The notes beneath the pieces were generated by a model. It saw only the letters and a list, made by a program, of their open reading frames with translations. It ran no database searches and was not told the DNA's origin. 64,000 bases of DNA from Narthecium ossifragum (taxonomy: Eukaryota; Streptophyta; Magnoliopsida; Dioscoreales; Nartheciaceae): NCBI GenBank assembly GCA_963920575.1, contig OY986964.1, positions 19,449,395 to 19,513,394 of the forward strand, written 5' to 3'. Position 1 is the stretch's first letter. The number at the start of each line of letters is the position of its first letter. Made by a program: the position numbers and the translations under genes. Below, piece after piece: positions 6,024 through 64,000 of this stretch.

Positions 6024-6026
6024 AGC

Positions 6027-16467: not shown

Positions 16468-16525
16468 TGTGGTTTTCCTTTGTTTCGAGCCCTACCTTTA
16501 TCGAATCTCGGGACGAGATTTCTTT

Positions 16526-16539
16526 TAAGGGTAATAGGA
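16526..16539 (+). promoter_or_regulatory. Tek-C polypurine tract (probable)
   Basis: Purine-rich sequence TAAGGGTAATAGGA directly precedes the 3' LTR start. The same string precedes the Tek-B 3' LTR at 19121. Position and conservation suggest the plus-strand primer site, although it is interrupted by thymines. Confidence 0.55.
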
Positions 16540-18750: not shown

Positions 18751-18755
18751 TGTCA

Positions 18756-19046: not shown

Positions 19047-19120
19047 TGTAGCTTTTCCTGTTGTTCCGAGCCCTACCTTTATCGAATCTCGAGACGAGAT
19101 TTCCTTTAAGGGTAATAGGA

Positions 19121-31410: not shown

Positions 31411-33600
31411 TGTCGCGCCCCGACCAGCGTAGGCCCAACCGGGCCGGGCGACGCGAACCAGAACCTAACCTACTGCGGAAATTTTGGCGAGGTTTCCCTC
31501 TAATCATAGTGGTCTCCCTAGCAATTCATAATCATCCTGTATTAACATACAATTACAAACCTCAAAGACTGAAACTGAAATATATACAAATCCTCAACAG
31601 GGTAAAAGTTATACAAAATCTCTCCCGTAGGAGGCTAACTAAACAAAGGGTAGAACTGACGATCACCGCACCTCAAGCACCGCCAGACGCCGCCACGTCA
31701 CCAAACACCGGCCCGGTAGGAGCGACCGAAGAAGAGCTAGCGCCAGCACCTGCAAAACGCAACCCGGGTAGGAGTGAGCACTAAGCTCAGCAGGGACACT
31801 ACACTACGACACTCATAAGGGAGGGAATACAACAGTGTCGCCCTCAAGCAAAGGCTGGGTGTACACAGGGGTCCCATAACCCCACCGCGTGTCCCTGAAA
31901 GGTGGCCTCAGTCATGGTCCCCAGCCAAACTGGTCACATGCTGGGTCGCCCTTAGCGAGGCAGGAAACCGGCACTGCCATCTCACTAGCAGGAAACCAAC
32001 ACTGCTAGGCGGGCAACCAACACCGCTGAGTAGGCACAGCCTCTACCAAAGAGACAGTGAACCGGACACCGGCTACACCTCAACACTCGGCTCGAGGCCG
32101 ACACGACCTCTAAACATCAAACCACATGTATTCAGGTCATCTAGCCCTATCATCGAAATCGACTGAATACTACAAATCGAGTCCTGGACCAAGCTACCAG
32201 CAACGGTCCTAGAGGTAGATCCGGACTACCCGAAAGCCCCGGATCGGCGATCAACCCATCGCTAACGTCCTACACAGATGCAACTAATGCACAAAGCAAT
32301 GCATGTTATGAGCACACGCAGGAATATACAGATAAGCATGCAACAGTATGTGATTATATATCAGACAAGGTTTGGGCACGGCACCCTGCCGGCCCGGGGT
32401 GGTGAACAGGTAAATAAGGTCTAGGAGCTGCAACAGTGGTACTACCACCAACTGTCAGTAGTCCACCACAACACCTGCATCGGGAAGCAGCCCCGCAAAC
32501 AACAGCTCACAGATATCACAGATAAAGCCCTCGGCGCACGCCGGCATGCAATGCTAGGGAAAGCTGTAGGGCTACCCGCCCGTTTATCCTAAACATCACG
32601 GGAGTCATTAATCCCCCGGTTCACCACTGCCCCTATTATAGGGCTAACATGCTTAAACATATGTACCAGATATAAAACAGTAGAGAAAACCATCATAAAA
32701 AGCCCCGCGGGCAAAAGCCACTTGAAAACACTCCTCATCCACTAAGAGATCGATCTCCCTTCCCAAGGGGATCGATCTTCTTAGCACTTGGGAGAAACTC
32801 GTCTCTGTCAATCGAAGGAGATCGATCTTCCTCCACCAGAAGGATCGATCTTCTTCGTGACATGGAACCCGCCACCTAAACCCAGGCAAGGATCGATCCT
32901 GCTCGGGCTGGGCGTGACGACCCAGAAGAGATCGATCTTCCCTCAAGGGAGATCGATTCGAATGGGTTCTCCGGCGACCGGACGGCGTGAAATACCGCCG
33001 GAAAATACAACCAAATCCCCCAAATCTCTGGGATCTGGTAGATTAAGAACCCACGAGTCCAAAACCAGTGAAATCATGGAAAACAAACATGTATTTTAAC
33101 AGATCTAAGCAAAAGAACATAATCAAACCAGAAAAACTCCAAAAACCCGGAAGATTGTAGGTAGGATCCCTACCTATGCAATAGCAGCTTCTATCCCAGC
33201 TACTCGGCCTTAGATCTTCCTCAAACGAACTCAAATCCAGCAAGAACGCGGGTGAAATCTCGGATTTTCAAAAAAAACTCAAAAGAAAAGGTTTCGTTCG
33301 TTTTATAGACGAACGAACCGACTCAAGAGAGATCGATCTCTCTTGAGAAAGAGATCGATCTTCCTTGCCAAATCGGGTTTGACTTTCTGGCACTAAGAGA
33401 TCGATCCTCTAGCTAGGGAGATCGATCCCTTAGGTGCAGAAAGTTAGACTTGGGCTAAAACATAAGCCCAAGCCAAACATTTACACAACCATAGTCAGTG
33501 TGTGCACACAAGGGTGTGAAACTAGCCGACAAAGCGCAATTTACGAAATTGCCCTTGCGGTGCACGACGAGCCACAGGAGCAGAGGGACGGGTCCTCACA
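31411..33600 (-). repeat. Tek-D 3' LTR (2190 bp)
   Basis: Minus-strand start TGTGAGGACC at 33600, end GGGGCGCGACA at 31411. The TATA box (TATAAAA on the minus strand) is at about 33300-33306. A perfect 26-nt palindrome centred on ATCGAT spans 33322-33347, immediately upstream of it. Further GATCGATC hairpins lie at 33350-33432, and the transcribed-side array at 32745-32960. Relative to the 5' LTR it lacks one array module and a 37-bp segment near 33469. Confidence 0.92.
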
Positions 33601-33699
33601 TCCTAATACCCTAAAAGGAAATCTCGTCCCGAGATTCGATAAAGGTACGGCTCGGAAACAAAAGAAACAGCTACACTAGAAGACAGGACAAAAGTTATC

Positions 33700-33980: not shown

Positions 33981-33985
33981 GAAGG

Positions 33986-35450
33986 TGATGAGTGGATGAA
34001 AGTGCACTCTGAATAGTTTTATAACCATCTCAATTGCTAGATTATTATCCTTAATCAACATCTTTATTACTATTTTTATATCTATATGTTGCTTCACATA
34101 GTTGTGTGGAAAATGCAGGAAAAAGGAGCAAAGAAGCTGAAAAGATTACATGCATCAACTTGAACGATTAAACTATACCTGCTCATAAAGAACCCGATGA
34201 TGTGCCATATATGGTTGATAAGCTCTTTAAGTCTTGATTCTGGAGAATTTTACGGTTCGTGATTCCGAGTTTTTTACGGAAAGTTACAACATTTTTCGTA
34301 ACAGTGCGCAGGCTGAATGAATAGTGACGGTCGACCGTCAGATCTCACGGTCGACCGTCGCGCTAAAAAATTCCCCCGAACGACCGTCGCATCGACCGTC
34401 ACATGCAAAACTTCTCACGGTCGACCGTGGTATCATCCGTGGCATCGACCGTCAGCCTCTGTTGAAGAAAATTCTTCGCAGGGTCGATGCGAAGATCGAC
34501 CGTCGCTCTTCCGAATTATTTTGTACAGTTGACGGTCGACCGTGAGATCTCACGGTCGACCGCCAGATCAGCAGGGAGTGTATAATGAGCCGGATCTAAC
34601 CCGAGTTTAGGCCTATAAATAGGATACTTAGGGTTATCAAAAGGGGGGCTTTTCGAGGACTTTTCTGGAGCATATGGAGGAGAGGAAGCCGCGTTAGGGT
34701 TTTGTTTTTTTCGTCTTTCTTTCTTTATTTTTCTTTGAACACTTTTGTCGTCTTCATGATGAACATGAGTGACTAGTTTCTTTTCTAAGGTACCGATGTA
34801 GCCCTAATTGAATCATTCTATGTTATTGGATCATATTTATTTAATCAGTTTATATTTCTTGTTTCATTCATTATTATAACTGAGATCTTAAATACCTTTA
34901 TCTGGCCAATAGAAGTATTATAGATTGTGTTATGTGAGATTGGACGAGGGTTCATTCCCTAATCTTGCATGATCTATGAATGAATGAGATTTAGTCGAGG
35001 CCGGGTTCAAGCTAAGACACTTCTTGGTTCTTAATTGTTCTTCAGAGGGTAATGGATTCTTGGTTAACACTTAGTTATGGGTTCATTAACTAGGGTTAAT
35101 TAGGGGTACTTGGTGAAGACCGCGATCGAACGGATTATCATATCGGAAGAACGAGCCCTTGGAATTAAACTGAAATCTTGTCGGATTCAATGCATAGAAT
35201 GAGGATGTTATGGTGAAATCGGAACCTTAGTATTCATCTATCATATTTCCATCGTTTTCTTGTTTCGTTATTAGATTATCTATTCTCAACATTTCATATT
35301 CTTATTTTCCCTTCGTTATTTTCTTTCTTTTCTGCTCTTTAGCTATTCACACTAATAATCTTTACAAATCTCTGTAGGTACGATACTCGTCTTGCTACTA
35401 TACTGATTGCACCGATTCGTATACTTGCGAGATATAAAATTTATTCATCA
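33986..35450 (+). repeat. Ath-G 5' LTR (1465 bp)
   Basis: TGATGAGTGGATGAAAGTGC to TTATTCATCA. Contains the GGTCGACC palindrome array (34326-34566), TATAAATAG (34614) and the CTCTGTAGGTACGATAC phrase near the end. The terminal repeat matches 39087-40534. Confidence 0.93.
34326..34620 (+). promoter_or_regulatory. Ath-G LTR promoter: ACGGTCGACCGT hairpin array and TATA box
   Basis: The 14-nt palindrome GACGGTCGACCGTC opens the array, followed by a second ACGGTCGACCGT at an 8-nt interval. A hairpin with arms GGTCGAT/ATCGACC and a 6-nt loop lies at 34482-34501. A perfect 30-nt palindrome spans 34533-34562. TATAAATAG follows at 34614, about 50 bp downstream. In the 3' LTR the array (39426-39655) has lost 16 bp and several arm bases, so it changes quickly. 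The regulatory role is inferred from position. Confidence 0.65.
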
Positions 35451-35456
35451 AGTTTT

Positions 35457-35474
35457 TGGCGCCATTGCCGGGGA
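35457..35474 (+). promoter_or_regulatory. Ath-G primer-binding site (tRNA-Asp type)
   Basis: TGGCGCCATTGCCGGGGA, six bases after the LTR. This is the form known from Athila-type elements, with one base changed (A for G). Confidence 0.85.
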
Positions 35475-35499
35475 TTTGATTAGAGTTTGTTAGTAGTGA

Positions 35500-37896
35500 A
35501 TGCAAGGTCGCCGATCACGGAAAGGAAAGTTGTTGCCCTTGAACGATAAGGTAGATCAAATTGGTTGGAAGAAGAGATCTAACAAAGACAGCCTATCCAC
35601 ATCAGATCTAGGAGTTCAAGAGGAGGAACAAGAGGAGATGGCGCTTAATAACAATTTACGTCCTTTGGAGGAGTACGCGAGGCCTACTATTTCTACCTCA
35701 CCTTCGTGCATTGCATTACCTGATGAGGCTAGAAATTATGAACTTAAAAATCTACATTTTTCTATGCTTCCTGAATTTCAAGGTTTACCTTCTGAAGATG
35801 CACTAACGTTTGTGAAAGATTATTATGCTATTATTCAGACTTTTCCTTTAGGTGGCATTACTGAAGATCACTTGAGGATGCGATGTTTTCCTTATACCCT
35901 GAAGGATAAAGCGAAGAGATGATTGATGTCGTTGCCTCCTGGATCACTCACTACTTGGGATACAATTTATAACAAGTTTGTTAGTAAATTTTATTCTCAT
36001 GCCATGACTACTAACTTGAGAAGGCAAATTCCAAATTTTCAGCAAGCTGATGGAGAACCATTCCATGAAGCATGGGATAGATTTAAGATGCTTTTGATGC
36101 AATGTCCACATCATAATTATTCTTTAGAAAATCAGATGCAATATTTTTATGATGGACTAAATCTTTCTCGTCAGACTATGGCAGATAATGCTACAGGTGG
36201 AGCGATGTTCAAAAGGACACCACCAGAGGCATATGAAATCTATGAGATGCTAGGATTGAACTCGCAGCAGAGGGACACAAGGAATAAGGCGAGAGGCATC
36301 TATGAGCTGAACCAAAACGATGACACGGCAAGGCAGATTGCAGCCCTTAACAAGAAGATAGACGCTATGATGTCCATACAAGCAAAATCGGTTGAGGTTT
36401 GTTCAATTTGCAATGTTGTTGGTCATAGGTTTGACTCATGTCCTTCTGGTAGTGAATTTCCTGAATATGTGCAAGAATAAGCTAATTTGATGAGTGCTTA
36501 TAACTCGAGACCTAGATTTGACCCTTATGCAAATACTTACAATCCTGGTTGGAGGGAGCATCCGAATTTTTCATGGAAAAATACTGCTAATGCTAGTATG
36601 CCTACTGTTAATTAGTCTAACCCACCTGTTAAGTCGTCTTTGAAAGCGACTATGTTAGCTTTTATGCAGAAAATAGACTCAAGGATGGAACAGCAAGATT
36701 CAGCCATTGCTCGACATGATGTAGAATTGAAGAATGTTGCAGCCTCCATTGGAAAGTTGGAAGTTCAAGTGGGACAGCTTTCAGATGCTGTACGAGCCCA
36801 TGTTCCAGGCAGATTTCCAAGCCAACCTGAGCAAGCCAACACAGTTACTGTTCTTCGTTCAGGTTAAATAATTAATAATAATATGAATGCTGACGTTACT
36901 GATATGTGTAGTAATGATAAAATTGAGGAAGTCAAAAAGGAGGAACGCTCGAAGAGGCCACCGCTGGCCACATCTTCTTCTGAGCATGGAAAGAGAGCAA
37001 GTTCAGATCCGGAGGTTCGTCACAACGATCCTCCACCATATGTGCCGCCAATTCCTTTTCCAGGCCGCCTGAATAAAGCCCAAATGGATAAGTCTTATTC
37101 TGAAATTTATGATATTCTATCTAAGGTTAATGTGAACTTACCATTGCTTGATGTGATTAGGAAAATGCCAGCCTTTCCAAAGTTCTTCAAGGAACTACGT
37201 ACTTCTAAACGTAAGTATGAACCTCATGAAAAGGTGATGGTTTCAGAGACGGCAAGCGCGGTTCTACAAAGGAAGCTTCCACCAAAGCTTAAGGATCCAG
37301 GGAGTTTTAATATTAATATTACTGTTGGTGATACAAAAATAGGGGAGGCAATGCTTGACTTAGGAGCTAGTGTTAATTTGATGTCTTACTCTGTTTTCCT
37401 TCAGCTAGGTGTTGGTAAATTAAAACCTACTACTATGTCTCTACAACTTGCAGATCGTTCAATTAAATATCCATTAGGCATTGTAGAGGACATCTTAGTA
37501 TAAGTTGATAAGTTAATTATCCCTGCTGATTTTGTGATATTGGATATGGATGATGAATCATTGAATGATAGAAAATTGCCTATTTTGTTGGGACGCCCAT
37601 TTATGGCTGCAGCTGATACTATGATTAATGTAAAGGATGGTAAGCTCAGCATGACAGTTTTAGGTGAAACTGTTGAATTTAAAGTGTTTGAGTCTGTGTC
37701 ATGTCCTTCAAACTCTTTTGATTGCTTCTCAATAAATGTTGTAGATTCATTGGTGTTCTCAAATTTCAAGCAGGAGCAAGTGAAGACTACATTGAAAGCG
37801 GATTTGAAGATGGTGCAGGATGACTTACACGGTTATGGGAGAGCAAAGGAGGTCGTCGCACCGCTTAAAGCATTACAGCCATGCGAACCTGGCTGA
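35500..37896 (+). pseudogene. Ath-G gag-protease with five in-frame stops
   Basis: One uninterrupted reading register of 798 codons plus a terminal stop. Gag core: FPYTLKDKAKR, FYSHAMTTNLRRQI, FHEAWDRFKMLLMQCPHH. CCHC knuckle CSICNVVGHRFDSC at 36400-36441, then YNPGWREHPNFSW and a coiled segment (VELKNVAASIGKLEVQVGQL). Aspartic protease LDLGASVNLM at about 37354-37383 and a LLGRPFMA tail. Internal stops: TGA 35920, TAA 36478, TAG 36613, TAA 36865, TAA 37501. There is no frameshift, which is striking for so many stops. The frame then ends CEPG before an AGGCAA hairpin, with no RT. Confidence 0.88.
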
Positions 37897-39086
37897 ATCT
37901 TAAGGCTTTGCAGTACGTCTTGCCTAGACGTTAAATAAAGCGCTGGGTGGGAGGCAACCCACCAAGGTAACCTGTTTTTTTTTTAAGTTTCAATTTTTAG
38001 TTTTATGTTTTCTCTTTTGTTTTTCTTTTAGGATTTCAGCCACCTCGAGGATCCTTGAGGAGATGTTCGCTACTCTATCAAGTGGCCTCTTTCTTATTTA
38101 CATTATCTTGTCTCCTCTTTCTCTGGAAATTTTTGGATAGCCACCTCCTACATATTTTAGTGGATAAATGCACACATTGAGGACAATGTTGATGTCAGGT
38201 TGGGGGGTGCAGACATTCATGACCTTATTCATACTACCTTGTGGGTATAATAGTGTTAAATTGTACATGAGTTGAAATTTTTATGCGTATTATACATGCT
38301 GTATTCATATGGATTGGCCTATACATTGATTGCATGTGTGATAACTTAAAGGTAGAACATTATGTGAGTCACACACGAACACGTTATGTGCAGTGGTAAT
38401 TATACCCACCAAAGGAATGAGCATGCTATTGTCAATCTAGACCATGATTTCAGCATTAGTTAGTGTTGAGTATTGCATGCAGAAAAAAAAGAAGAAAAAG
38501 TTCTAGAGCTTGATTAAGCTGTGCCTAAACACCTATTAGGTGATCTACTGAGTAACCTGGTGTTCTTGCCTCAGGAAGCGAAGAGCTCGCGTAAAAAGGT
38601 AGAATCACTAATAGCTAAAAAAAACTACTCAGTGTTTTGTTAAGTAACGGGGTCTCTGCGCCTCATGAAGTGGAGAGTGCTCGTGTAAAAAGGCAAAATG
38701 TCTGATAGTTGAAAAAAAAAGAAAAAGAAAAGAAGAGTATGTTGTAATTTAAGTGCTAGGGTTGGATGATTGGTTGTGAAGATAGTAGTGTGTTTGGACT
38801 AATGATGGGTAGAAGTTGCTTCTGTACGTAACATTTATTTCTCACGTCACATGTGTTCTTCTGGATGGTGGTTAGCACGTTTGAAGTGTAGAAGTTGATT
38901 TCATATGTTGGTAGTATGTGTATGAGTATAAGAAGTTTTCGTGCTCTGTACTGTGTAAAACACTATTGACTTGATAAGGTAGAATTTTTATCATGCATGT
39001 CTACATCCTTGAACCGTTAGTGTGCTTAATTATATTCTATACGCTTTGAATTGCTAGAGACTAGCAATAAGCTGGTTGGGGGAGTG
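37897..39086 (+). other. Ath-G noncoding 3' internal region
   Basis: About 1.2 kb between gag-pro and the 3' LTR. It holds the hairpin at 37946, two similar segments each ending in an A-rich tract (around 38480-38640 and 38640-38730), and a G-rich polypurine tract (TTGGGGGAGTG) just before 39087. No coding frame is supported. Confidence 0.7.
37946..37963 (+). other. GGTGGG-AGGCAA-CCCACC hairpin
   Basis: A perfect 6-bp stem with loop AGGCAA. A hairpin with the same loop occurs in Ath-F at 60830, also just after the gag-related frame. 'TGGGAGGCAACCCA' is a phrase I associate with Athila-group elements; its role is not known to me. Confidence 0.7.
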
Positions 39087-40534
39087 TGATGAGTGCATGA
39101 AAGTGCACTCTGAACAACCTTAAAACCATCTCAATTGCTATATCTTCACCCTTAATCAACTTCTTTATTACTATTTTTTATATCTATATGTTGCTTCACA
39201 TAGTTGTGTGAAAAATGCAGGAAAAAGGACCAAAGAAGCTGAAAAGATTACATGCATCAACTTGAACGATTAAATTGTACCTGTTCATGAAAAACCAGAT
39301 GATGTGCCATATATGGTTGGAAAGCTCTTGAAGTCTAAATTCTGGAGAATTTTACGGTTCGTGATTCCGAGTTTTCCACGGAAAGTTACAACATTTTTCG
39401 TAACAGTGCGCAGGCTGAATGAATAGTGACGGACGACCGTCAGATCTCACGGTCGACCGTCGCGCTCAAAAATTCCCCCGAACGTCACATGCAAAACTTC
39501 CCACGGTCGACCGTGGCATCATCCATGGCATCGACTGTCAGCCTCTGTTGAAGAAAATTCTTCGCAGGGTCGATGCGAGATCTATCGTCGCTCTTCCGAA
39601 TTATTTTGTACAGTTGACGATCGACTGTGAGATCTCACGGTCGACCGCCAGATCAGCAGGGAGCGTATAATGAGCCGGATCTAACCCGAGTTTAGGCCTA
39701 TAAATAGGATTCTTAGGGTTATCAAAAGGGGGGCTTTTGGAGGACTTTTCTAGAGCATCTGGAGGAGAGGAAGCCGCGTTAGGGTTTTGTTTTCTTCGTC
39801 TTTCTTTATTTATTTTTCTTTGAACACTTTTGTCGTCTTCATGATGAACATGAGTGGCTAGTTTCTTTTCTAAGGTACCGATGTAGCCCTAATTGAATCA
39901 TTTTATGTTATTGGATCATATTTATTTAATCAGTTTATATTTCTTGTTTCATTCATTATTATAACTGAGATCTTAAATACCTTTATCTGGCCAATAGAAG
40001 TATTATAGATAGTGTTATGTGAGATTGGGCGAGGGTTCATTCCCTAATCTTGCAGGATCTATGAATGAATGAGATTTAGTCGAGGCCGGGTTCAAGCTAA
40101 GACACTTCTTGGTTCTTAATTGTTCTTCAGAGCGTAATGGATTCTTAGTTAACACTTAGTTATGGGTTATTAACTAGGGTTAATTGGGGGTACTTGGTGA
40201 AGACCGCGATCGAACAGATCATAATATCGGAAGAACGAGCCCTTGGAATTAAACTGAAATCTTGTCGGATTCAATGCATAGAATGAGGATGTTATGGTGA
40301 AATCGGAACCTTAGTATTCATCTATCATATTTCCATCGTTTTCTTGTTTCGTTATTAGATTATCTATTCTCAACATTTCATATTCTTATTTTCCCTTCGT
40401 TATTTTCTTTCTTTTCTGCTCTTTAGCGGTTCACTCTAATAATCTTTACAAATCTCTGTGGGTATGATACTCGTCTTGTTACTATATTGATTGCACCGAT
40501 TCGTATACTTGCGAGATATAAAATTTATTCATCA
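39087..40534 (+). repeat. Ath-G 3' LTR (1448 bp)
   Basis: TGATGAGTGCATGAAAGTGC to TTATTCATCA, followed by [17 protein letters not shown] at 39699. It differs from the 5' copy mainly in the palindrome array and scattered substitutions. Confidence 0.93.
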
Positions 40535-42222: not shown

Positions 42223-43792
42223 TGATGAGTGCATGAAAGTGCACTCTGAACAACCTGGTAACAACCTCAATTGCTAGATTATTATCCTTAATCAACATCT
42301 TCACATAGTTGTTTGGAAAATGCAAGAAATCGGAGCTAAAAGAAGCTGAAAAGAGTATATGGATCAACTTCAAAAATTAAACTGTACCTGTTCATGAAGT
42401 ACCAGATGATGTACCATATATGGTTGGAAAGCTCTTGAAGTCTAGTTTCTGGAGAATTTTACGGTTCATGATTCCGAGTTTCCTACAGAAAGTTATGGCA
42501 ATTTTAGTACCAATGGCGCAGTCTGGATGGCAAAACAGTAAATACGCTGGAAAGTCCGATCGATCCGACAACTAGAGTAGGATCGATCCGACTATGCAGA
42601 AACCTGACAGAACGCATACTTTTCAGCTGTAGATAGTCAGATCGATCCCTCCATCCATCCTACTGAGTCCGATCGATCCGTCTCGGGCGTAGCCAAAAAT
42701 TGAAGATTTTGATGAGTGGGATCGATCCTACACCTATAGAGGGATCGATCCTACTTTCCCAATGAAGAAAATCAACGGTTTAGATTTAATCCGAGGATGG
42801 AGAGACTTTGGGGCCATAAATAGGAAACTTAGGGTTAATCAAAGGGGAGTTCTTGGACGTTTTTGGAGGCTCTTTTGTGGACGTTTTCCAAAGGAAGAAG
42901 ATGAAGGAATCTCCATCCATGGCCGAGTAATCAGTGGGCATGGTGGACGGATGATCTAGCGAGGACTAGGGCTTCTTCTCCAACGATGGTTTATAGTTTT
43001 AATCTTTATTGTTAAACTCTTTTCTATGTATTGGATCTTCAAAGATTATTTTCAGATTATAGATTTCTATGTGGATGATTAATATTATGAATCCAGTCAT
43101 GCTTCTTTCATGATCTTATAATCCCATAGTTATCTCTTTTGATTCTCCTACCGAGTCTCGCGAGACCTTTGCTATGCATTGCCCGTAGTGACAACTGGTA
43201 TTGTGTATTCTTAGGGATATGATAAGACAAGGTTAGGGCTCTATCCCGAGGAATCTTTGCTATGCATTGCCGATTGTGAGAGTTGGTATTGTGTATTCTT
43301 AGAGATCCGGTTAGATAGAGTTAGGGCTTTGTCCCGATGAACTTTTTACTGCGCGTTGCCTGTAGTGACAACCGGTATCGTGTATTCTTAGGTTTGGGTT
43401 GGATGAAGTTAGAACTATAATAAGGAAGAATCAATTGTAGGAAGAGATACTTTTGTATTTTGTTAGGTTTATAGTTCCATATCTTTCGGTTAAGGTGATT
43501 GGGATGTGAACCCCTTAACTGAGTATTATATAAACCATTGAGAAGACAAGAACCTAAATCCGAGTGAAGTGATTCCTGAAGCCTAGCCTCATTCAAATCT
43601 TGATTTCTTTCGTTAACTTTATCTTATCATTACATCTTCGATCTATTTTCTTAACTTTTATCGCACTTGATTGTTTTCGATATATTGTTATCTGTGTTTC
43701 TGAATCTTTCCTGCTTGTCTCTCTGTGGGTTCGACCTATCTTATGCTGTACTGCACCGCGACCGCTGTTCGTGACACATTTGAGCGACATCA
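42223..43792 (+). repeat. Ath-H 5' LTR (1570 bp)
   Basis: Starts TGATGAGTGCATGAAAGTGC like Ath-G and ends GAGCGACATCA. It carries GATCGATCC palindromes at about 42555-42756 and a TATA-like CATAAATAGG at 42815. It also has a threefold imperfect repeat (TGTGTATTCTTAG with GTGACAAC) at 43170-43400. The U3 start is shared with Ath-G but the palindrome sequence is not. Confidence 0.82.
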
Positions 43793-47364: not shown

Positions 47365-49157
47365 TGTCGCGCTCCGACTCGCGTAGGCCCAACCGGGCCG
47401 GGCGACGCAAACCGGAACCTAACCTACTACAGAAATTTTGGCGATGTTTTCCTCTAATCATAGTGATCTCCCTAGCAATTCAAAATCATCTTGTATTAAC
47501 ATATAATTACAAACCTCAAAAACTGAAACTGAAATATATACAAATCCTCAACAGGGTAAAAGTTATACAAAATCTCTCCCGTAGGAGGCTAACTAAACAA
47601 AGGGTAGAACTGACGATCGCCGCACCTCAAGCACCGCCAGACGCCGCCACGTCACCAAACGAGTGAATACTACAAATCGAGTCCCGGACCAAGCTACCCG
47701 CAACGGTCCTAGAGGTAGATCCGGACTACCCGAAAGCCCGGGATCGGCGATCAACCCATCACCAACGTCCTACACAGATGCAACTAATGCATAAAGCAAT
47801 GCATGTTATGAGCACACGCAGGAATATACATATAAACATGCAACAGTATGTGATTATATATCAGACAAGGTCTGGGCACGGTACCCTACCGGCCCGGGGT
47901 GGTGAACAGGTAAATAAGGTCTAGGAGCTGCTACAGTGGTACCACCACCAACTGTGAGCAGTCCACTACAACACCTGCATCGGGAAGCAGCCCCACAAAC
48001 AACAGCTCACAGATATCACAGATAAAGCCCTCGGTGCACGCCGGCATGCAAGGCTAGGGAAAGCTGTAGGGCTATCCGCCCATTTATTCTAAACATCCCG
48101 GGAGTCATCACTCCCCCGGTTCACCACTGCCCCTATTATAAGGCTAACATGTTTAAAAATATGTACCAGATATAAAACAGTAGAGAAAACCATCATACAA
48201 AGCCCCGCGGGCAAAAGCCACTTGAAAACACTCGTCAACCACTAAGAGATCGATCTCCCTTCCCAAGGGGATCGATCTTCTTAGCACTTGGGAGAAACTC
48301 ATCCCTGTCAACCGAAGGAGATCGATCTTCCTCCACCAGAAGGATCGATTTTCTTCGTGACATGGAACCCGCCACCTCAACCCAGGCAAGGATCGATCTC
48401 TCTCCAGCCGGAGGATCGATCCTGCTCGGGCTGGGCGTGACGACCCAGAAGGGATCGATCTTCCCTTAAGGGAGATCGATCCAAATTGGTTCTCCGGCGA
48501 CCGGACGGCATGAAATACCGCCGGAAAATACAACCAAATCCCCCAAAACTCTGGGATCTGGTAGATCAAGAACCCACTAGTCCAAAACCGGTGAAATCAT
48601 GGAAAACAAAATTTTAACAGATCTAAGCAAAAGAACATAATCAAACCGGAAAAACTCCAAAAACCCGAATGATTGTAGGTAGGATCCCTACCTATGCAAT
48701 AGCAGCTTCAATCCAAGCTACTAGGCCTTAGATCTTCCTCAAACGAACTCAAATCCAGCAAGAACACGGCTGAAATATCAGATTTTTCAAAAAAAATCAA
48801 AAGAAAAGGTTTCGTTCATTTTATAGACGAACGAACCGACTCAAGAGAGATCGATCTCTTTTGAGAAAGAGATCGATCTTCCTTGCCAAATCGGGTTTGA
48901 CTTTCTAGCACTAAGAGATCGATCCTCTAGCTAGGGAGATCGATCCCTTAGGTGCAAAAAGCTTGACTTGGGCTAAAACTTAAGCCCAAGCCTGGATCTT
49001 TCGATCCTGGGTCCCACTAATCATTCTAGCCAAACATTTACACAACCATGGTCAGTGTGTGCACACACGGGTGTGAAACTAGCCGACAAGGCGCAATTTA
49101 CCAAATTGCCCTTGCAGTCCACGACAAGCCACAGGAGTAGAGGGACGGGTCCTCACA
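47365..49157 (-). repeat. Tek-D 5' LTR (1793 bp, internally deleted)
   Basis: Same termini as the 3' LTR, but about 450 bp matching roughly 31710-32157 are missing at the join CACCAAAC/GAGTGAATAC (about 47660). It has one more array module than the 3' copy (48396-48424). Palindrome arrays at 48245-48481 and 48840-48950. Confidence 0.9.
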
Positions 49158-52888: not shown

Positions 52889-53947
52889 TGAAGCTCTAAG
52901 AGGGGGGGGCTTATCTTAGGCGTTAAACAATAAAATCAATTAAGGAAAACTGAGTAGGAGGAGTCTAATCAAGAAATATGCTTGCAATGATAAGAGCAGA
53001 TAATTAAGCATATAAATAGAAGGATAGATGAGAGTTAGAGAGATTGCACCAGAATTTTTATAGTGGTTCGGCCAACCATGCCTACGTCCACTTCTCCCAA
53101 GGACCTCCTTGGGGTTCCACTACTTGCAAGACCTCTTACAAGCTTCCACCAAGCTTACGGGTGCTTGGCAACCTTACAATCTCTCCAAGCTCTCTCTTGG
53201 ATATTTCTCTCAATGTCTACTTCACACTTGAAGTAGTTTTACAAAGGTTTAGCTCACTAATAAGAGATAGAAACTTGCTAGAATATTATTACAATAATCC
53301 CTTAGCTCCCTCTAAGTCCCTGGCAAGTTAGCTGGACTTTCTCTTATATAGCTGAGACTCCAACCCCTCCAAATAGCCTCCCAACGGCTATTTCTTTCTC
53401 CTACAACGGCTCTTTAACGGCTAGTTTATGGGCTCACGGTCGACCGTCGCATCGTCCGTGACATCGTCCGCCAGCCTTTCTTGAGCCACGGTCGATCCAC
53501 CAATCGACCGTCGCACCGCACGGTGGATCCGCCTATCGACCGTCACTCCTCACGGTCGACTGTCCCATCGACCGTGACATCGTCCGTCAGGCTCTCTTGC
53601 GAAAACCTCTTCCTAGGGTCGATGCACCGATCGACCGTCGCTCCTTCGAGCCAAGTCACATAGGCCACGGTCGATCGGTCCATCGACCGTCACACCTCAC
53701 GGTCGACCGTCCGGTCGACCGTGAAATCGACCGTCGCCTATATTCCCATTGTCAGCTTCCGCGGTCGATCCTTCCATCAACCGCCATATCCCACGGTCGA
53801 TCCATGCATCGTTCGTCGCATCGACCGTCAGTACAAAACTCAATAAATATGATTTAAATGCTTTCCAAATTAAGAGATAATAATATTAAATCATTATTTT
53901 ATCATCAAATATATATTGACATCATCAAAACAATATATGGGCTAACA
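52889..53947 (-). repeat. Cop-I 3' LTR (1059 bp)
   Basis: Minus-strand TGTTAGCCC start at 53947, ...GAGCTTCA end at 52889. U3 carries the GGTCGA hairpin array (53430-53830). A TATATAAG box on the minus strand lies at about 53345-53352. The opposite strand holds open frames in the R-U5 part that are identical in both LTRs; these are not taken as genes. Confidence 0.93.
53430..53830. repeat. 24-nt hairpin array in Cop-I LTR
   Basis: Tandem inverted repeats of the form ACGGTCGAT - 6 nt - ATCGACCGT. A perfect one lies at 53488-53511. Others have loops CGGTCC, GCACCG, CCTTCC and CCATGC. One longer form has 12-nt arms (CACGGTCGACCG / CGGTCGACCGTG) and a 2-nt loop near 53698-53723. The other LTR (56228-56624) repeats them and keeps two perfect copies at 56281-56304 and 56313-56336. 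Confidence 0.93.
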
Positions 53948-54565
53948 ATCTCCCTCTTTTTGATGATGGCAACCCTTTAAATTGTGATGATAAATCCTTG
54001 AAAGCTCCCTCTTAATTTGTGCATCCATTTACCTCATAAAATATGTTCTAAAGTTAATTTCACTGAGGCATGCAAGTCATATGTCACTAAAAGGATATAT
54101 TAGGCTTGATTATAGGTCAAAAGATGTGAAAGTGCAAAATATGACATATGTACCTCTTTTTGTAGAACCATGATATTTGAACATTGATTAAATCATCAGT
54201 AAATCCTTAAAAGATTTCAGATATTGGAATATAAGGTTTTAAGAGCTTTCAAAAACTGATATCACAATATCACAATATTTCTCCCTCTTTGACATTATCA
54301 AAAAGATTTGGTAGAGGGGGAGAGAAGAATCAAACAAAGGCTTTTCTTAATAGAAAGTTTTAAAATCATCTCAAAACAATATACCAAATGAAGATAATAA
54401 AAAACGGTCATTTGTAAAAAGTAATCAAATCTTCACATAAAGGACTTTCTTAAACCATTTTTAAACATGAAATTTCTTTTAAAAAAAAATGGAATAAGAA
54501 GATGTAATGGAGGAGACATATATCGAAAATTAAGACATACCTCCATTACCTTTTAAACCAAAATG

Positions 54566-55618
54566 TTATCCTCCTTTAAATACCTTGTGCCTCCACTTGT
54601 CAATTTTGTTTTCTTTTATTTCGAAGGCAGTTAGACAACGATTTGCAGTTTCTTTTTCTTCTTCTTCTTCGGAGGTAGAGGTCGAGTCACTTTCTTCCTT
54701 GGCCTTTTTCTTCTTCTTTGAAGATTTGAGCTTTGGACAATCCGGCATGTAATGTCCGGGCTTCCCACACTCATAACAAGTAACTTTATTTAAGTAAGAA
54801 GAGGGCTTTCCTTTTTCACCTTTGGAATTTTTCTTTCCTTGATTCTTGATGATTCGTTGGATTCTCCTTGTGATCTTTTGCATCTCCTCATCATCATCTT
54901 CATCGCTTGAGTCGGATGAATCCTTGTATGTTGACTTGAAAGCAATGATTTTCTTTTTCTTCTTTTCTCCATCATTGCTCCTCTCCATGTTCATCTCATA
55001 TGTCATGAGAGAACCCATTAGCTCATCAAGGGACAGCTTGGTTAAATCTTTAGCCTCTTCGATTGCTGTCACCTTGGGATCCCATGACTTAGGTAGACAC
55101 CTAAGAACCTTTCTCACTTTCTCATCATTAGTATAGCTCTTACCAAGAGAATCAAGAACATTTATAATATTGGTAAAGCGAGTAAACATTTCATTTATAT
55201 TTTCATCATCCTTCATAGAGAATAACTCATAGTCATTAACAAGCATGCTAATCTTAGACTCCTTTACTCGGCTAGTTCCTTCACGAGTTATCTCAAGCTT
55301 CTCCCATATTTCCTTAGCCGATTTACAAGCTGAAATTCTATTAAATTCATCAGGGCTAACAACACAAAATAATAAATTTTTGGCTTTGGCATTGACTTGG
55401 AGATTTTTCAAATCAGTACGGGTGAGCTCACTTCTAGCCTTAGGCACTTCCTTTCCTTCATGAATTTTGGTAGGAATAGTTGGGCCATCCTCAATAGTCA
55501 TCCATGCTTCATAATCCCTGGATTTTACAAATATTTCCATTCTATTTTTCCAATATGTATAATTTGAACCATTGAAGTATGGTGGCCTATTTGTGGATTG
55601 TCCTTCTATGTTTTCCAT
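54566..55618 (-). CDS. Cop-I Copia-type Gag
   Basis: Intact 350-codon frame starting MENIEGQSTNRPPYFNGSNY. Residues 10-200 form a Copia gag (UBN2/DUF4219-like) domain: YFNGSNYTYWKNRMEIF, AKEIWEKLEITREGTSRV, INEMFTRFTNIINVL, VRKVLRCLPKSWDPKVTAI. A Lys/Asp/Glu-rich region follows. CCHC zinc knuckle CYECGKPGHYMPDC at about 281-294, then an acidic SESDSTSTSEEEEE-type stretch. It ends WRHKVFKGG, where a full element would continue into protease. This is the only retrotransposon frame in the window with no disabling mutation. It may be maintained for packaging the element's own RNA; SIRE-like affinity is a guess from the gag and LTR. Confidence 0.9.
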   Translation of the reverse strand: MENIEGQSTNRPPYFNGSNYTYWKNRMEIFVKSRDYEAWMTIEDGPTIPTKIHEGKEVPKARSELTRTDLKNLQVNAKAKNLLFCVVSPDEFNRISACKSAKEIWEKLEITREGTSRVKESKISMLVNDYELFSMKDDENINEMFTRFTNIINVLDSLGKSYTNDEKVRKVLRCLPKSWDPKVTAIEEAKDLTKLSLDELMGSLMTYEMNMERSNDGEKKKKKIIAFKSTYKDSSDSSDEDDDEEMQKITRRIQRIIKNQGKKNSKGEKGKPSSYLNKVTCYECGKPGHYMPDCPKLKSSKKKKKAKEESDSTSTSEEEEEKETANRCLTAFEIKENKIDKWRHKVFKGG

Positions 55619-55668
55619 ATTGATTTAGGATCCTCTAAGGGCTGTTACACCACAAAATTAGAGACCTA

Positions 55669-55680
55669 GCTCTGATACCA
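55669..55680 (-). promoter_or_regulatory. Cop-I primer-binding site (tRNA-iMet)
   Basis: Reverse complement TGGTATCAGAGC, two bases inside the 5' LTR edge at 55683. Confidence 0.93.
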
Positions 55681-55682
55681 AT

Positions 55683-56740
55683 TGAAGCTCTAAGAGGGGG
55701 GGCTTATCTTAGGCTTTAAACAATAAAATCAATTAAGGAAAACTGAGTAGGAGGAGTCTAATCAAGTAATATGCTTGCAATGATAAGAGCAGATAATTAA
55801 GCATATAAATAGAAGGATAGATGAGAGTTAGAGAGATTGCACCAGAATTTTTATAGTGGTTCGGCCAACCATGCCTACGTCCACTTCTCCCAAGGGCCTC
55901 CTTGGGGTTCCACTACTTGCAAGACCTCTTACAAGCTTCCACCAAGCTTACGGGTGCTTGGCAACCTTACAATCTCTCCAAACTCTCTCTTGGATATTTC
56001 TCTCAATGTCTACTTCACACTTGAAGTAGTTTTACAAAGGTTTAGCTCACTAATAAGAGATAGAAACTTGCTAGAATATTATTACAATAATCCCTTAGCT
56101 CCCTCTAAGTCCCTGGCAAGTTAGCTGGACTTTCTCTTATATAGCTGAGCCTCCAACCCCTCCAAATAGACTCCCAACGGCTATTTCTTTCTCCTGCAAC
56201 GGCTCTTTAACGGCTAGTTTCTGGGCTCACGGTCGACCGTCGCATCGTCCGTGACATCGTCCGCCAGCCTTTCTTGAGCCACGGTCGATCCACCAATCGA
56301 CCGTCGCACCACACGGTCGATCAGCATATCGACCGTCACTCCTCACGGTCGACCGTCCCATCGACCGTGACATCGTCCGTCAGGCTCTGTTGCGAAAACC
56401 TCTTCCCAGGGTCGATGCACCGATCGACCGTCGCTCCTTCGAGCCAAGTCACATAGGCCACGGTCGATCGGTCCATCGACCGTCACACCTCACGGTCGAC
56501 CGTCCGGTCGACCGTGAAATCGACCGTCGCCTATATTCCCATTGTCAGCTTCCGCGGTCGATCCTTCCATCAACCGCCATATCCCACGGTCGATCCATGC
56601 ATCGTCCGTCGCATCGACCGTCAGTACAAAACTCAATAAATATGATTTAAATGCTTTCCAAATTAATGGATAATAATATTAAATCATTGTTTTATCATCA
56701 AATATATATTGACATCATCAAAACAATATCTGGGCTAACA
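55683..56740 (-). repeat. Cop-I 5' LTR (1058 bp)
   Basis: Partner of 52889-53947, with the same TATA box and hairpin array (56228-56624). Confidence 0.93.
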
Positions 56741-56745
56741 GGTTC

Positions 56746-59107
56746 TTGATGATTTGATAGAGTGTGAGCAATCGACTTTCTTATCTGGTCGAAGCATTCA
56801 TGATAATATTGACTCAACTATTGAAATTATCAATTCCATGAAGCATGCACCTAAATCTCGGAGTTTGATGGTTGCTAAGATCGATTTGAAATCAGCCTAT
56901 GACAAGGTCAGCTGGCAGTTTATGGAATTGGTGCTTAGAAAGATGAATTTTTTAGCCAAGTGGATCGATTGGGTTATGGCATGTGTCACAGGTCCTCGCT
57001 TCTCCCTAATTATCAATGGCCAGTTACATGGTAGAATTGCCTCAAAATGTGGATTACAGCAGGGAGATCCCCTTTCTCCTTGTTTTTGTTAGTTCAAGAA
57101 GTTTTGTCAAAGATTTTGAAGAATCCTACAGATGCCCTGATAGGATTGAAGGTGCCAAGGTCTGACTTCATCATCTCTCATCTCCTCTATGCCGATGATT
57201 GTTTGTTTGTGACTTGAGCCACATGTCTAGAAGGAAGGAAATTAAAGCAGAAACTTCTCTTCTTCAAGGAACTTTACGGGTTGGAAATGAATCCCCTTAA
57301 GTCCAGTATCCACTTCTCTAAAGTTTTGGATGTGGATAGAAGGCGTACTACATGTTACATCCTTGGCATTCCAGCTGCTAGAGGTGTTTGGAATTACTTG
57401 GGAGTTCCTGTTAGTGACAAGAGGATCTCCAATGCAGATTATTCAGGGCTTATTGATAAGATGACAGAGAGAGTTTTGGGGTGGCAAGGTAGATTAATCT
57501 CGGAAGCCGGAAGGGTAACTTTAATTCAATCTGTTCTACAATCCATTCCAGGCTATGTCATGGCAACTTCAAAGCTACCTGCGAAGGTGATTCAAAGATT
57601 GGAAAGCATATGCAGACCCTTTCTTTGGAGAGGGAGGAGATCAAGTCTTTGCAATGTGGCTTGGAAAGAGGTTTGTACTCCTAAAGAGGTGGGAGGGCTA
57701 GGGCTGAGAGATCTAGGCCTTTGGCAAAAAGCGTTGAAAATGAACAGAATGGCTTTGTTCCTTGATAAGAGTCAAAGTATTTGGAAGCAGTTGAGTAGAG
57801 CCAAGTACAAATGGAAAGAGATTCTCCCGTCTAAGAGGACTCTTCGGGGTGGATCACCGCATTGGAAAGCTTTATGCGAAGCTGCAAACATGACCAGGAA
57901 AGGATTAATTTGTAAACCAGGCAAGAATAGTGCAATCAGTCTGATTCATGATAACTGGCTAGGCGTTGGTGCTATGGCAGATTCTCCCCTTCTCTTCAAT
58001 GGTGATGGACGTTTTCATTCTGCGGTGGTGGGGGATTTGTTGAATGAGTCAGAATGGAACTATGATTGTGTGGTAGAGTTTGGTCATGAAGCCTTGGCAG
58101 AAGAGATCTTCAAAGTTCCAATTAGAGCAGAGGAAAATAGGGATTGCTGCCGTTGGTCCCTAAATAAGAATGGTTTCATCACTACATCATCTTCTTATGA
58201 TATTTTAGTGAAGGAGAAAGTTAATCCCAAACGTTATGATGAGATGGAGGTTTGGATAAACCTTTGGAGTTTGCCTATTGGGCCAAGAGTCAAGCAGTTT
58301 CTTTGGCATGTCCTTCATGGTAAAGTGGCTGTGAAAGAAGCATTGTGGAGGTGCATGATGGTCTCAGACAGGTTATGCCCGAGGTGTGGAAGTGATACTG
58401 AAAGTATTCCTCATGCATTGTTGGAGTGTGGATTCACCAAAGAAGTCCTAGAGGCTATCCTGCGTGAACAAAATTGGGATGGAAAAGAATGGGGAACAGA
58501 AGATTATTTGAATTTATTACTCAGATCCTCGAACGAAGAGGGCATAAGAAACCTCAAGGTTCATGTTGCCTATGCCATATGGTTAATATGGAAGGATCGA
58601 AATCGAGTGGTATTCGATGGGGGTGGGGATTCAGCGAGAAGCCTTGTGTTCAAAGCATGTTGAGCAGCCAAGGAGTGTCTACAGATGCGAGGGCTCCATT
58701 CAGATGTAAGGAGGAGAGGGGAGGGGATGGTTTTGTAGGTAGATGCTTCATGGGTGCCAGACACAAATCAAGCAGCGGCGATTGGCGTGGTGGAGATCAA
58801 AGACACAGAGGTGGTCTAGGCCATGGGAAGACCCGTTGATGTTGGATCGTGTATTGAGGCGGAACTACGTGCAATTTTTTATGAGATTACTTGGGCTAGG
58901 GAGAAGGGCTATGTGGAGTTGGTGGTGGAATCTGACTCAAAAATGATAGTTGACATGTTGCAGAGCAGGATGCTTTGGACTCATCAGGTTGAGTCGGTTT
59001 TGAAGGATATTTGGGAGGTGGGGATGCACTTCCAGGTTCTTGTTTTTACTCATATCCCCAGAGATCAAAATTGTATAGCAGATGGGATAGCATGGTGGTG
59101 CCGTTGA
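56746..59107 (+). pseudogene. LINE ORF2, reverse transcriptase core, zf-RVT and RNase H
   Basis: RT continues from 52888: EQSTFLSGRSIHDNIDSTIE, KIDLKSAYDKVSW, CGLQQGDPLSP, then the catalytic YADD (LLYADDCLF, about 57189). Frame breaks lie at about 57088 and 57218. 57281-58663 is a long open stretch (LGVPVSDKRISNADYSGL, FLWRGRRSSLCNVAWKE). It ends in the zf-RVT segment LWRCMMVSDRLCPRCGSDTE. RNase H ends the protein with VDASWVPDT, SCIEAELRAIFYEI, ESDSKMIVDML, DQNCIADGIAWW. A TAG interrupts it before AMGRPVDVG. The 3' tail ends in an A-rich run at 59213. Confidence 0.87.
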
Positions 59108-59442: not shown

Positions 59443-59472
59443 CGATCGGTCGGACCCCAAACCGACCGATCG
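59443..59472 (+). other. Perfect 11-bp inverted repeat in Ath-F leader
   Basis: Arms CGATCGGTCGG and CCGACCGATCG, 8-nt loop. Located between PBS and the first gag-related frame, so in the untranslated leader. Same design as the LTR arrays of the other elements but a different arm sequence. Confidence 0.85.
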
Positions 59473-61000: not shown

Positions 61001-63238
61001 TGTTGCGCTCGACCCACGAAAGCCCAATTGGACCGGGCGACGCGAACCGGAACCTAACAAACTATGGAAAATTTTTGCGAGGGTTCCCTCCAACCTAAAG
61101 GTCTCCATAAACAATTCATCAAAAACTCTCAATTACAAATTAAAGATTTTAGAAACCTTAAGCTGAAGATATCAAATCCCAAAGTAATACTATACAAAAC
61201 CTCGAAGAGGGAAAGATCAAGTACACATATTTATACTCTCCCGTAGGAGGCTAACTATACAAGGGTTCTGGGAAAGACAGATCACCACTCCTCAAACTCC
61301 GCCAGGCGCCGCCGCACCGCCGACCAACTGCCCGGTAGGGGCCACCGAAGAGGAGTTAACGCATGCACCTGCAAAACGCAGCTCGGGTAGGAATGAGCAC
61401 TAAGCTCAGTAGAGAAACTACACTACGACACATAAAAGGAAGAGGGAAACACAACAGTGTCGCCTTCTAGTAAGGCCTGGGTGTATACATGGGTCCCATA
61501 ACTCCATCGTGTGTTCCTGAGATCCACGGTCATGATCTTCCAGAATAACTGGTCACATGACGGGTTACGCTCAGTAGGCAGGAGACCAACACTGCTGCCT
61601 CACAAGTAGGAAACCAGCACTGCTGGAAGAAAATGATACCGCTGAGTAGGCAGTCCCTCTACTCAAGAGTCGTCACAACTGGATACTGGCTACACCTCAG
61701 AACCCAACTCGAGGCCGACATGACCTCTACAATCATGAATCAACAGGTGTTCGAGTCATCTAGGCCTATCATTGAAATCGACTGAACACCACCATTCAAA
61801 CTTGAACCAAGCTACCCAACCCCGGTCCTAGGGCTAAATCCAAGCTTCCAAGCCTCGGGACGGCGACCGACAGATCGCCCACGCCCTAACCTTATGCAAC
61901 TAATGCACAACCAGATGCATGCTTTGCACAAACGCATGGAAACAAATAAGCATGCAACATATATGATGATTAAATAAATAAGGTCTGGGCTCGGTACCCT
62001 GTCGGCCCGAGGTGGTGAACAGTAAAACAGGCCAAGGAGCTACTACAGTGGTAACCCCACCAACTACAGCAAGTCCACCAAAAGACAGCATGTTACTGGA
62101 AGCAACCTCGACAAATAAGACTAACAATACAACATGCTATCTAAACATCCCGGGAGTCGTCACTCTCCCGGTTCACCACTATCCCTCATTATGGGGCTAA
62201 CATGCTAAATGATATGTACCAGTTTATAAAGCGGTAAAGAAAACCGCATATGCGAAGCCCCGTGGGAAAACCCATTGAAAATGCCTCTCAGCCACCAAAG
62301 AGATCGATCTCTCTATCAGAGAAGATCGATCTTCTTAGTACTTGGGAAGCCTCATCCCAGTCAACAGAAAGAGATCGATCTTCTCCACCAGAAGGATCGA
62401 TCTTCTTCGTGACTCGGACCCCGCCCATGCCAGCTAAGCAAGGATCGATCTTCTCCATCAGAAGGATCGATCCCGCTCGGGTTGGGCATGACGTCCCACA
62501 AATGATCGATCTTTCCTTAAGAAAGATCGATCCGAATGGGTTCCCCGGCGGAACGCCGGCGAGAAATACCGTCGAAAAACTCCACCAAATCTCACAAAAC
62601 CTTGGGATATGGTAGTACGAAGGACCACGAGTACAAAACCAAAGATATCATTGAAAATAAATGTGTATATAATCAGATCTCAGCAAAACAATCCACAATT
62701 AAACTTAAAGCTCACAAATCCAGAAAAACAAGTAGATAGGATCCCTACCTAGATTAGAGCAGCTTCAATCCCAGCTGCTAAGCCTTGGATCGTCCTCAAT
62801 CTCCTTCAAATCTAACCGGATCTCAACTCAAGAACACGGATTTGAAAAAAAGTCAAAGAAGAGGGTTTCGATCGTTCTATAAACGGACGAACCGCCTTAT
62901 AAGAGATCGATCTCTTCTCAAAAAGAGATTGATCTTTCATGACGAACCGACTTAACATTCTGGCACAAAAAGATCAATCTCCTTAGCAAGGGAAGATCGA
63001 TCCCCTTTTCCCGGAAAGTTCAACTTGGGCTAAAACATAAGCCCAAGTCAGGATCGTTCGATCTCGGGTCCATGTAATCATTCTAATCAAGCATTTACAA
63101 AAACACGGTCAGTGTGTGCACACGCGAGTGTGAAACAAACCGACAAGACACAATTTACTAAATTGCCCTTGCGGTCCACAACGAGCCACGGGCCCGACCC
63201 AGACGGTTGACTCAGGAGTGGAGGGGTAGGTTCTCATT
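61001..63238 (-). mobile_element. Solo Tekay LTR
   Basis: A single LTR of about 2.24 kb, with no internal sequence, bounded by TSD GTTAC (60996-61000 and 63239-63243). On the minus strand it starts AATGAGAACC (a degraded TGTGAGGACC) and ends GAGCGCAACA. It keeps the GATCGATCT arrays (62301-62532, 62903-63004) and a TTTATAGAA box near 62876. A small insertion (GGGCCCGACCCAGACGG) lies near 63189. It was formed by recombination between the two LTRs of an older insertion. Confidence 0.9.
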
Positions 63239-63243
63239 GTTAC

Positions 63244-63409
63244 CCATCACCGCCTGTCGCCACCTCTCCGGCCGCCCTCATCCCTCCAAACCAACACCCT
63301 AACCTCTGTGAACCTTCCACCTCTTCATTCCCGTCCTCTTCCATCGAAACCTTCTCCTCCGACGCCGGTGAACCCCTCGGCCATCGTCGACACCTTCATC
63401 CACGGCCGC
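63244..63409. other. C-rich stretch between two Tekay LTRs
   Basis: Pro/Ser-coding-like C-rich sequence (for example TCTCCGGCCGCCCTC). It may be continued Ath-F internal sequence or older host DNA. No protein family recognised. Confidence 0.35.
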
Positions 63410-64000
63410 TGTGAGGACCTGTCCCTCTACCCCTGTGGCTCGTTGTAGACCGCAAGGGCAATTTGGTAAATTGCGCCTTATTGGTTTGTTTCAGACCCGC
63501 GTGTGCACACACTGGCCTTGTATGTATTAGTGTTTGTTTAGAACGGCTAGGTCGACCCGGGATCGGAAGATCCCAGCTCGGGGGCGCGGAAGCTTGCCTT
63601 TGGGCAGCTAACGACCCTTGAGCGATCGATCGCTCCTTGGGACGATCGATCGGACTCGATCCGACTTGGTGTTGGGATCGAGCCAGGGCGCGAGCGATCG
63701 ATCGCTCCTTGGAGCGACCGATCGGAATCGCGTCGGTGGCTTTTCTGCTTCGCGAGGACGGCCACCGCTGGCCGTCGTTCTCCTCTGTCAGAGGGGGGGG
63801 AGGACTTTCCCTCCCCTCCCCTCACTTTTCCCCCTTTTTCCCGGCTTTCCCCTCCCCCTTTCCCCTCTTTTCTTCCCCTCCTCTTCCTCCTTCTCCTCTC
63901 TTTCTTCTTCCTTCTTTCTTTCTCTCCCGAAGCTCTGCTTCTTCCCCTGTTCCGGCAGCCAAGCTTCATCTCCTCCATTCTCCCTTCTCCGGCCATCTTT
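63410..64000 (+). mobile_element. Start of a Tek-A-like LTR (Tek-K), cut by the window edge
   Basis: Begins TGTGAGGACCTGTCCCTCTA and follows the Tek-A LTR closely: GGCAATTTGGTAAATTGCGCC, then GTGTGCACACACTGGCC. It carries GAGCGATCGATCGCTC palindromes (63621-63636 and about 63691-63706) and ends in a long CT-rich tract matching Tek-A's purine tract on the other strand. A target duplication starting at 63405-63409 (GCCGC) is predicted beyond the edge. Confidence 0.85.

Follow-up and report, generated by a model that had tools for sequence, protein, structure and literature searches.

The closest described systems are the repeated motifs (RM) of Sireviruses. In the excerpts of Bousios et al. 2010 (PMC2829016) used here, palindromic motifs with a CGG-CCG signature lie upstream of the TATA box in 13 Sireviruses, and the consensus of the Vitis Sirevirus box is CGGTCGACCG. 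Martin et al. 2023 (PMC10760457, likewise in excerpt) also report hairpins in maize Copia LTRs, along with one palindrome that Copia elements share with Helitrons. The original prediction for the locus studied here was that unrelated LTR families share promoter-proximal arrays of short inverted repeats, and that no such module had been described. The second part has to be withdrawn, as the Copia part of the observation is already known from the Sirevirus repeated motifs (excerpts of PMC2829016), and hairpins with a shared palindrome appear in the excerpted maize study (PMC10760457).

Results

Retrotransposons of the window

Elements were delimited by self-comparison, Pfam and PBS patterns in the window, that is, the whole 64,000-nt stretch of DNA analysed. 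Its DNA is plant-like and contains nested LTR retrotransposons:

6026-8447, minus strand, Tek-A LTR
9278-11508, plus strand, Tek-B LTR
16539-18750, plus strand, Tek-C LTR
19120-21365, plus strand, Tek-D LTR
31411-33601, minus strand, Tek-E LTR
33985-40534, plus strand, Ath-G element with Retrotrans_gag and an Asp-type PBS
33985-35450 and 39086-40534, plus strand, 5′ and 3′ LTRs of Ath-G
from 42224, plus strand, Ath-H element with Retrotrans_gag and an Asp-type PBS
47365-49157, minus strand, Tek-F LTR
52889-56740, minus strand, Cop-I element with a copia-type gag
52889-53947 and 55683-56740, minus strand, 3′ and 5′ LTRs of Cop-I
54569-55624, minus strand, Cop-I gag (Retrotran_gag_2, zf-CCHC)
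59443-59472, plus strand, lone hairpin CGATCGGTCGG-8-CCGACCGATCG in the leader of a third element, about 200 bp past its Asp-type PBS at 59241
61001-63192, minus strand, Tek-J LTR
63409-64000, plus strand, Tek-K LTR, cut by the window end

Ty3/gypsy pol domains were found near the Tek LTRs (Pfam), and a search for a Tek chromodomain returned Chromo PF00385 at 14.0 bits (E 0.05), below the cut-off of 25.1. The gag region of Ath-G matches the Ath-H gag (tblastn 7.6e-46). The PBS GGCGCCATTGCCGGGG/GGCGCCGTTGCCGGGG is present in Ath-G/Ath-H, and we take it to be tied to tRNA-Asp and to Athila. With gag or pol domains of Ty3/gypsy type, the hosts of the Ath-G, Ath-H and Tek arrays are not Sireviruses. 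Ath-G, Ath-H and Cop-I are each known as a single element, the one in this window. Tek-B, C and D (8445-21365) are three LTRs in a row, separated by internal pieces, an arrangement like that left by unequal recombination. The third element with an Asp-type PBS (59241) begins directly behind a LINE-like stretch (zf-RVT ORF 57218-58660); the hairpin in its leader resembles those of the arrays, but lies outside an LTR, just inside the element.

Arrays of symmetric boxes

Arrays were found in both Cop-I LTRs, both Ath-G LTRs, Ath-H and all eight Tek LTR copies:

8110-8245, minus strand, Tek-A array of 6 GATCGATC cores at a spacing of 21-22 bp
9485-9600, plus strand, Tek-B upstream array of 4 cores, the last 22 bp from the TATA at 9613-9620
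9955-10205, plus strand, Tek-B downstream array, 8 cores, beginning 350 bp past the TATA
16746-17466, plus strand, Tek-C upstream and downstream arrays
19326-20115, plus strand, Tek-D upstream and downstream arrays, with one extra pair downstream
32740-33440, minus strand, Tek-E upstream and downstream arrays
34320-34575, plus strand, Ath-G 5′ LTR array, homologous by alignment to the Cop-I arrays (plus strand); TATA 34613-34623
39410-39660, plus strand, Ath-G 3′ LTR array, decayed; TATA 39698-39708
42540-42760, plus strand, Ath-H 5′ LTR GATCGATC array, in the position that the array has in Ath-G; TATA-like sequence 42815-42824
48240-48955, minus strand, Tek-F upstream and downstream arrays
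53430-53835, minus strand, Cop-I 3′ LTR array, 18 CGGTCGA/TCGACCG half-boxes and 3 full CGGTCGACCG; TATA 53343-53351
56223-56630, minus strand, Cop-I 5′ LTR array, 20 half-boxes and 4 full; TATA 56136-56144
62295-63010, minus strand, Tek-J upstream and downstream arrays
63615-63730, plus strand, Tek-K array of GAGCGATCGATCGCTC-type boxes, in the LTR cut by the window end

Inverted repeats (arms of at least 8, loops of 0-16) were counted in 13 LTR copies, which are not mutually independent, and in six control stretches, each compared with 60 dinucleotide shuffles. Every shuffle was exceeded in 11 of the 13 LTR copies versus one of the six controls, which bears out the predicted non-chance nature of the arrays. 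Tek A-F and J held 7-12 inverted repeats (shuffle means 0.28-0.43), Tek K held 5 (0.23), the Cop-I LTRs 9 and 9 (0.25 and 0.17) and the Ath-G 5′ LTR 4 (0.48); the Ath-G 3′ LTR (1) and Ath-H (2) were not above their 60 shuffles. The sole control above its shuffles was Tek pol, and that slightly (4 versus a maximum of 3).

There are two main core types, CGGTCGACCG in Cop-I and Ath-G and GATCGATC in Tek and Ath-H. The families had been described as differing in arm sequence; the two types do differ, but each occurs in two groups. Boxes of the CGGTCGACCG type often lie 12 or 20 bp apart, those of the GATCGATC type 20-23 bp apart within pairs. In the Cop-I LTRs, neighboring TCGA centers are 12 bp apart in 6 of 16 and 7 of 17 intervals and 20 bp apart two and three times. 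This recurrent 12-bp spacing is a better description than the constant 6-nt loop originally proposed, since the perfect-arm loops in one LTR measure 6, 8, 6 and 2. The Tek units are pairs of a self-palindromic box at a distance of 21-23 bp, so the hairpin partly follows from repeating a palindrome. Observed/expected CpG is 1.60 in the Cop-I array versus 0.31 in the rest of the LTR, 1.74 and 1.43 in the Ath-G arrays and 0.86 and 0.77 in those of Tek-B.

The distance from the last core to the TATA is 22 bp in Tek B, C, D, E, F and J, 50 bp in Ath-G, 64 bp in Ath-H and 85 bp in Cop-I, in line with the expected placement roughly 15-80 bp upstream. As judged by eye, Tek A and K have no TATA at the corresponding place of the alignment. 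Tek B-F and J carry a second array of 6-8 exact cores that begins 345-372 bp downstream of the TATA, so a location upstream of the promoter is not universal for these arrays. In Tek-E, a 9-bp inverted repeat (33293-33317) holds the TATA in its loop of 7 nt, and the same is seen at the corresponding place in Tek-B, C, D, F and J; in five distinct Tek copies 95.6% of 45 pair cells are standard and two pairs have changed on both sides, while 87 of 500 shuffles are equally good and slid versions pair at 33-56%.

Cop-I resembles a Sirevirus

The LTRs of Cop-I are 98% identical, and its internal region of 1735 bp contains gag without pol, being too short for a full pol. Judging from its sequence, Cop-I is a young, apparently non-autonomous Sirevirus-like element that displays most of the Sirevirus signatures tested. 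Among the best 120 of 734 gag relatives, the matches with a named organism are plants. No relative of the gag was found among viral contigs; the split palindrome pattern matched one viral contig (L001). The junction of 5′ LTR and PBS, CA/ATTGG/TATCAGAGC, has the exact Sirevirus form. The exact PPT octamer AGGGGGAG is absent from Cop-I, and AGAGGGAG, one base off this published sequence, lies at -10 (10 bp before the 3′ LTR). PPT-like copies of the form AG(A/G)GGGAG, a variant of the published octamer, occur at -341, -65 and -10. Full CGGTCGACCG boxes number 3 and 4 versus the at least eight that define an RM cluster in the excerpts of PMC2829016, where degenerate copies are counted; in its CpG density and in the 85 bp between its last box and the TATA (Sirevirus average 37 bp), the array agrees with such a cluster. 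A polyC signal is represented by seven consecutive C, 14 bp short of the end of the 5′ LTR, and the TATA CTATATAAG of both LTRs fits the Sirevirus cTATA(A/T)A(T/A)Ag-like form. Three AACGGC repeats (53383, 53405, 53416) were also noticed between the Cop-I array and its TATA (53380-53425), AACGG being presumably a MYB-type site.

An array common to Ath-G and Cop-I

On the plus strand, 152 bp of the Ath-G 5′ array align with the Cop-I arrays at 81-83% identity; for the decayed 3′ array the figures are 103 bases and 78-81%. Since Cop-I is transcribed from the minus strand, the shared cassette is inverted relative to transcription. Alignment scores for the 5′ array were 99 and 114, compared with maxima of 56 and 69 for motif-keeping shuffles; none of 754 tile-strand tests elsewhere exceeded 25. 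The opposite orientation scored 43, below its shuffle maxima of 50-51, and the two LTRs outside their arrays scored 16-25, which equals background. When the motifs were masked, the spacers showed weaker similarity (27 of 1000 shuffles as high), so the case for homology depends on the array in its order. By these alignments, one array is common to the LTRs of Athila-like (gypsy) Ath-G and Sirevirus-like (Copia) Cop-I, and it seems to have crossed between superfamilies. Based on the spread of CGG-CCG boxes among Sireviruses only, as given in the excerpts of PMC2829016, we infer that Ath-G gained the array from a Sirevirus and not the reverse.

The Ath-H LTR matches that of Ath-G at its start and around the TATA; between these two parts it has GATCGATC boxes instead. 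A relationship between the Ath-H array and the Tek arrays beyond the motif was not supported by 12 comparisons with six Tek copies, none of which rose above motif-keeping shuffles (lowest 14 of 200, Tek-D, minus strand). Ath-H and Tek thus share the core and nothing detectable beyond it, and the sharing may be convergent. Against the leader hairpin at 59443, the Ath-H array gave scores that 27 and 3 of 200 shuffles reached.

Conservation of the cores

Pairwise identity of the cores in five Tek copies is 97.4%, versus 66.2% within 15 bp of them and 75.6% elsewhere, and CpG is kept in 56 of 59 cells in cores versus 109 of 141. When sites were set from one copy at a time, a fraction of 0.80-0.88 was exactly conserved versus 0.14-0.30 of the remaining 8-mers with a CG (in each of five tests, none of 5000 samples reached the observed value), with the caveats that the aligner may favour cores and that overlapping 8-mers are not independent. 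These tests omitted Tek C, which is near-identical to B, as well as Tek A and K. The base beside the GATCGATC core is symmetric and lineage-specific: T in 11 of 12 cases in Tek-A (8119-8228), C in 19 of 24 in B (9485-10205), T in 14 of 20 in E, G in all six in Tek-K (63615-63730) and C in 9 of 12 in Ath-H; Tek-D is mixed (C in 13 of 24).

A low mutation rate as the cause of this conservation is not supported by LTR pairs, in which arrays diverge like the rest, although the counts are small. Differences number 8/406 in the array and 12/652 outside it for Cop-I, 10/239 and 52/1209 for Ath-G, and 1/116 and 3/251 in the arrays versus 28/2096 and 26/1961 for Tek B/C. Gaps between the Ath-G LTRs comprise two events of 17 bases in the array and two events of 2 bases outside. 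Because arrays decay like the rest after insertion, core conservation seems to arise during transposition, the pattern expected of a function for the element.

Pairing within array transcripts

We consider it unlikely, though worth serious attention, that the arrays act as hairpins in transcripts, whether in the 3′ LTR's U3 or in the leader of Tek, either for the element or as templates for host small RNAs. In maize, Sirevirus palindromes have been linked to small RNAs, according to the excerpts of PMC10760457, which refers to a 2016 paper. On each strand, the 110-nt segments with the lowest folding energies overlap arrays (Cop-I -64.9 and -64.0, Tek C -63.2, Tek B -62.5), and Tek K reaches about -62 to -63, but roughly one-tenth of 3195 folding windows pass -40 kcal/mol, many of them coding, and the array of Ath-H does not reach this value. 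In an energy test that omitted Tek A and K, the self-complementarity of spacers exceeded that of their own shuffles (none of 200 equally low) but was barely above that obtained when halves were exchanged between hairpins (27 of 300 equally low). Permutation tests, from which Tek C and E were omitted, also indicated that spacer-half pairing is not hairpin-specific (ranks 264-400 of 720 for Tek B, D and F; 10 of 24 for J). Outer flanks favour their own partner in two of the four copies tested (Tek F 2/720, J 1/24), and show no clear preference in Tek B (255/720) and D (92/720). None of five core changes in 240 cells is compensated and four break the pair, a count that dropped six of 36 hairpin copies for gaps, one of which (Tek J) also has a core change. 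It is the core sequence that is kept, and not pairing alone. Taken together, core conservation, the lineage-specific symmetric flanking base and the uncompensated changes are more consistent with a dimer that reads double-stranded DNA than with an RNA stem. Given the spacer shuffles and the outer-flank preference, pairing may still be under some selection.

Discussion

Our analysis suggests that the arrays are probably clusters of palindromic cis-regulatory boxes, putative sites of dimeric proteins that drive the LTR promoter or prevent its silencing. Among the functions originally proposed, a dimeric-factor site and a spreading cassette fit best, while RNA structure is weakly supported, given the swap and compensation counts. 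We predict that the arrays are of the same kind as the repeated motifs of Sirevirus LTRs, and that dimeric DNA-binding proteins would bind the boxes and either drive the LTR promoter or keep it unsilenced. The binding protein would be a host factor usable by unrelated elements, and its binding would increase transcription. The boxes would be kept during transposition and exchangeable between elements, whereas the arrays' transcripts would fold, and any small RNAs would arise, as a side effect. Against this explanation, the downstream array of Tek sits in the presumed transcribed leader. No known factor was matched to the boxes; type-B ARR and MYB (AACGG) proteins are the candidates that we would presume.

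It is improbable that slippage and template switching during reverse transcription simply built and homogenised functionless arrays, by neutral tandem expansion or as self-correcting palindromes. The tandem structure, the extra pair in Tek D and the arm lost in Tek E are all consistent with such a process, but the cores are kept amid diverged flanks, the 22 bp to the TATA are fixed, the position is alike in unrelated LTRs and such arrays are absent from the control stretches. Least probable of all is that the arrays are anti-silencing targets from which a VANC-like transposon-encoded protein removes DNA methylation, some families borrowing the protein of another: the motif arrays are dense and change fast between related elements as VANC targets do, and those of Cop-I and Ath-G are CpG-dense, but in the excerpts of PMC5735166 VANC motifs are non-palindromic and of single orientation, the Tek-B arrays are not CpG-dense, and no VANC-like gene was noticed.

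Building on palindromic cis-regulatory boxes as the preferred explanation, we tentatively propose, as something that may well prove otherwise, that the arrays form an exchangeable promoter module: an Athila-like LTR would have taken up an inverted Sirevirus array, related Athila-like LTRs would exchange one box type for another at a constant position, and shared cores in Copia, Athila-like and Tekay-like elements would be read by the same host factors. If boxes do move between superfamilies, retrotransposon regulation would evolve in part by modules passed horizontally within a genome, and boxes held in common would indicate host factors that many elements need. An array that passes between superfamilies hints at a tradable regulatory switch.

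Among the open-access papers listed as matches, we recognised no description of such arrays in Ty3/gypsy LTRs, and the terms "palindrom" and "inverted repeat" are absent from PMC4963935 (attachment sites) and PMC2832683 (LORE1). Relative to the excerpts of PMC2829016, the arrays in Ty3/gypsy LTRs, the cross-superfamily array, the replacement in Ath-H, the strong core conservation among Tek copies alongside decay after insertion, and the downstream array of Tek go further.

Among the known systems, again as far as the excerpts describe them, the VANC targets of Arabidopsis VANDAL elements (PMC5735166) are likewise dense, fast-changing, noncoding tandem arrays of short motifs, but they are non-palindromic, run in one orientation and belong to DNA transposons that encode their own binding protein. 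The tandem U3 repeats of Tnt1 and retroviruses (PMC3601003) are similar in that U3 repeats can regulate transcription; palindromic box arrays and sharing between superfamilies are not described in that excerpt. The maize hairpins (PMC10760457) offer a precedent both for palindromes in Copia LTRs and for sharing across classes of transposable elements, yet maize Ty3 elements generally lack an obvious hairpin peak, whereas here the Tek and Athila-like LTRs have arrays. The RM boxes of Sireviruses (PMC2829016) are the closest match: they too are numerous, palindromic, CpG-dense and upstream of the TATA, their Vitis consensus CGGTCGACCG is the core of Cop-I and Ath-G, and the Tnd-1 box ACAATCGATTGT shares ATCGAT with the Tek core. 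Unlike those boxes, the present arrays consist partly of half-boxes 12 or 20 bp apart, and in Tek they also lie downstream of the TATA. The RM boxes were reported as Sirevirus-specific within Ty1/copia; here such arrays occur in Ty3/gypsy LTRs too, and one array is common to two superfamilies.
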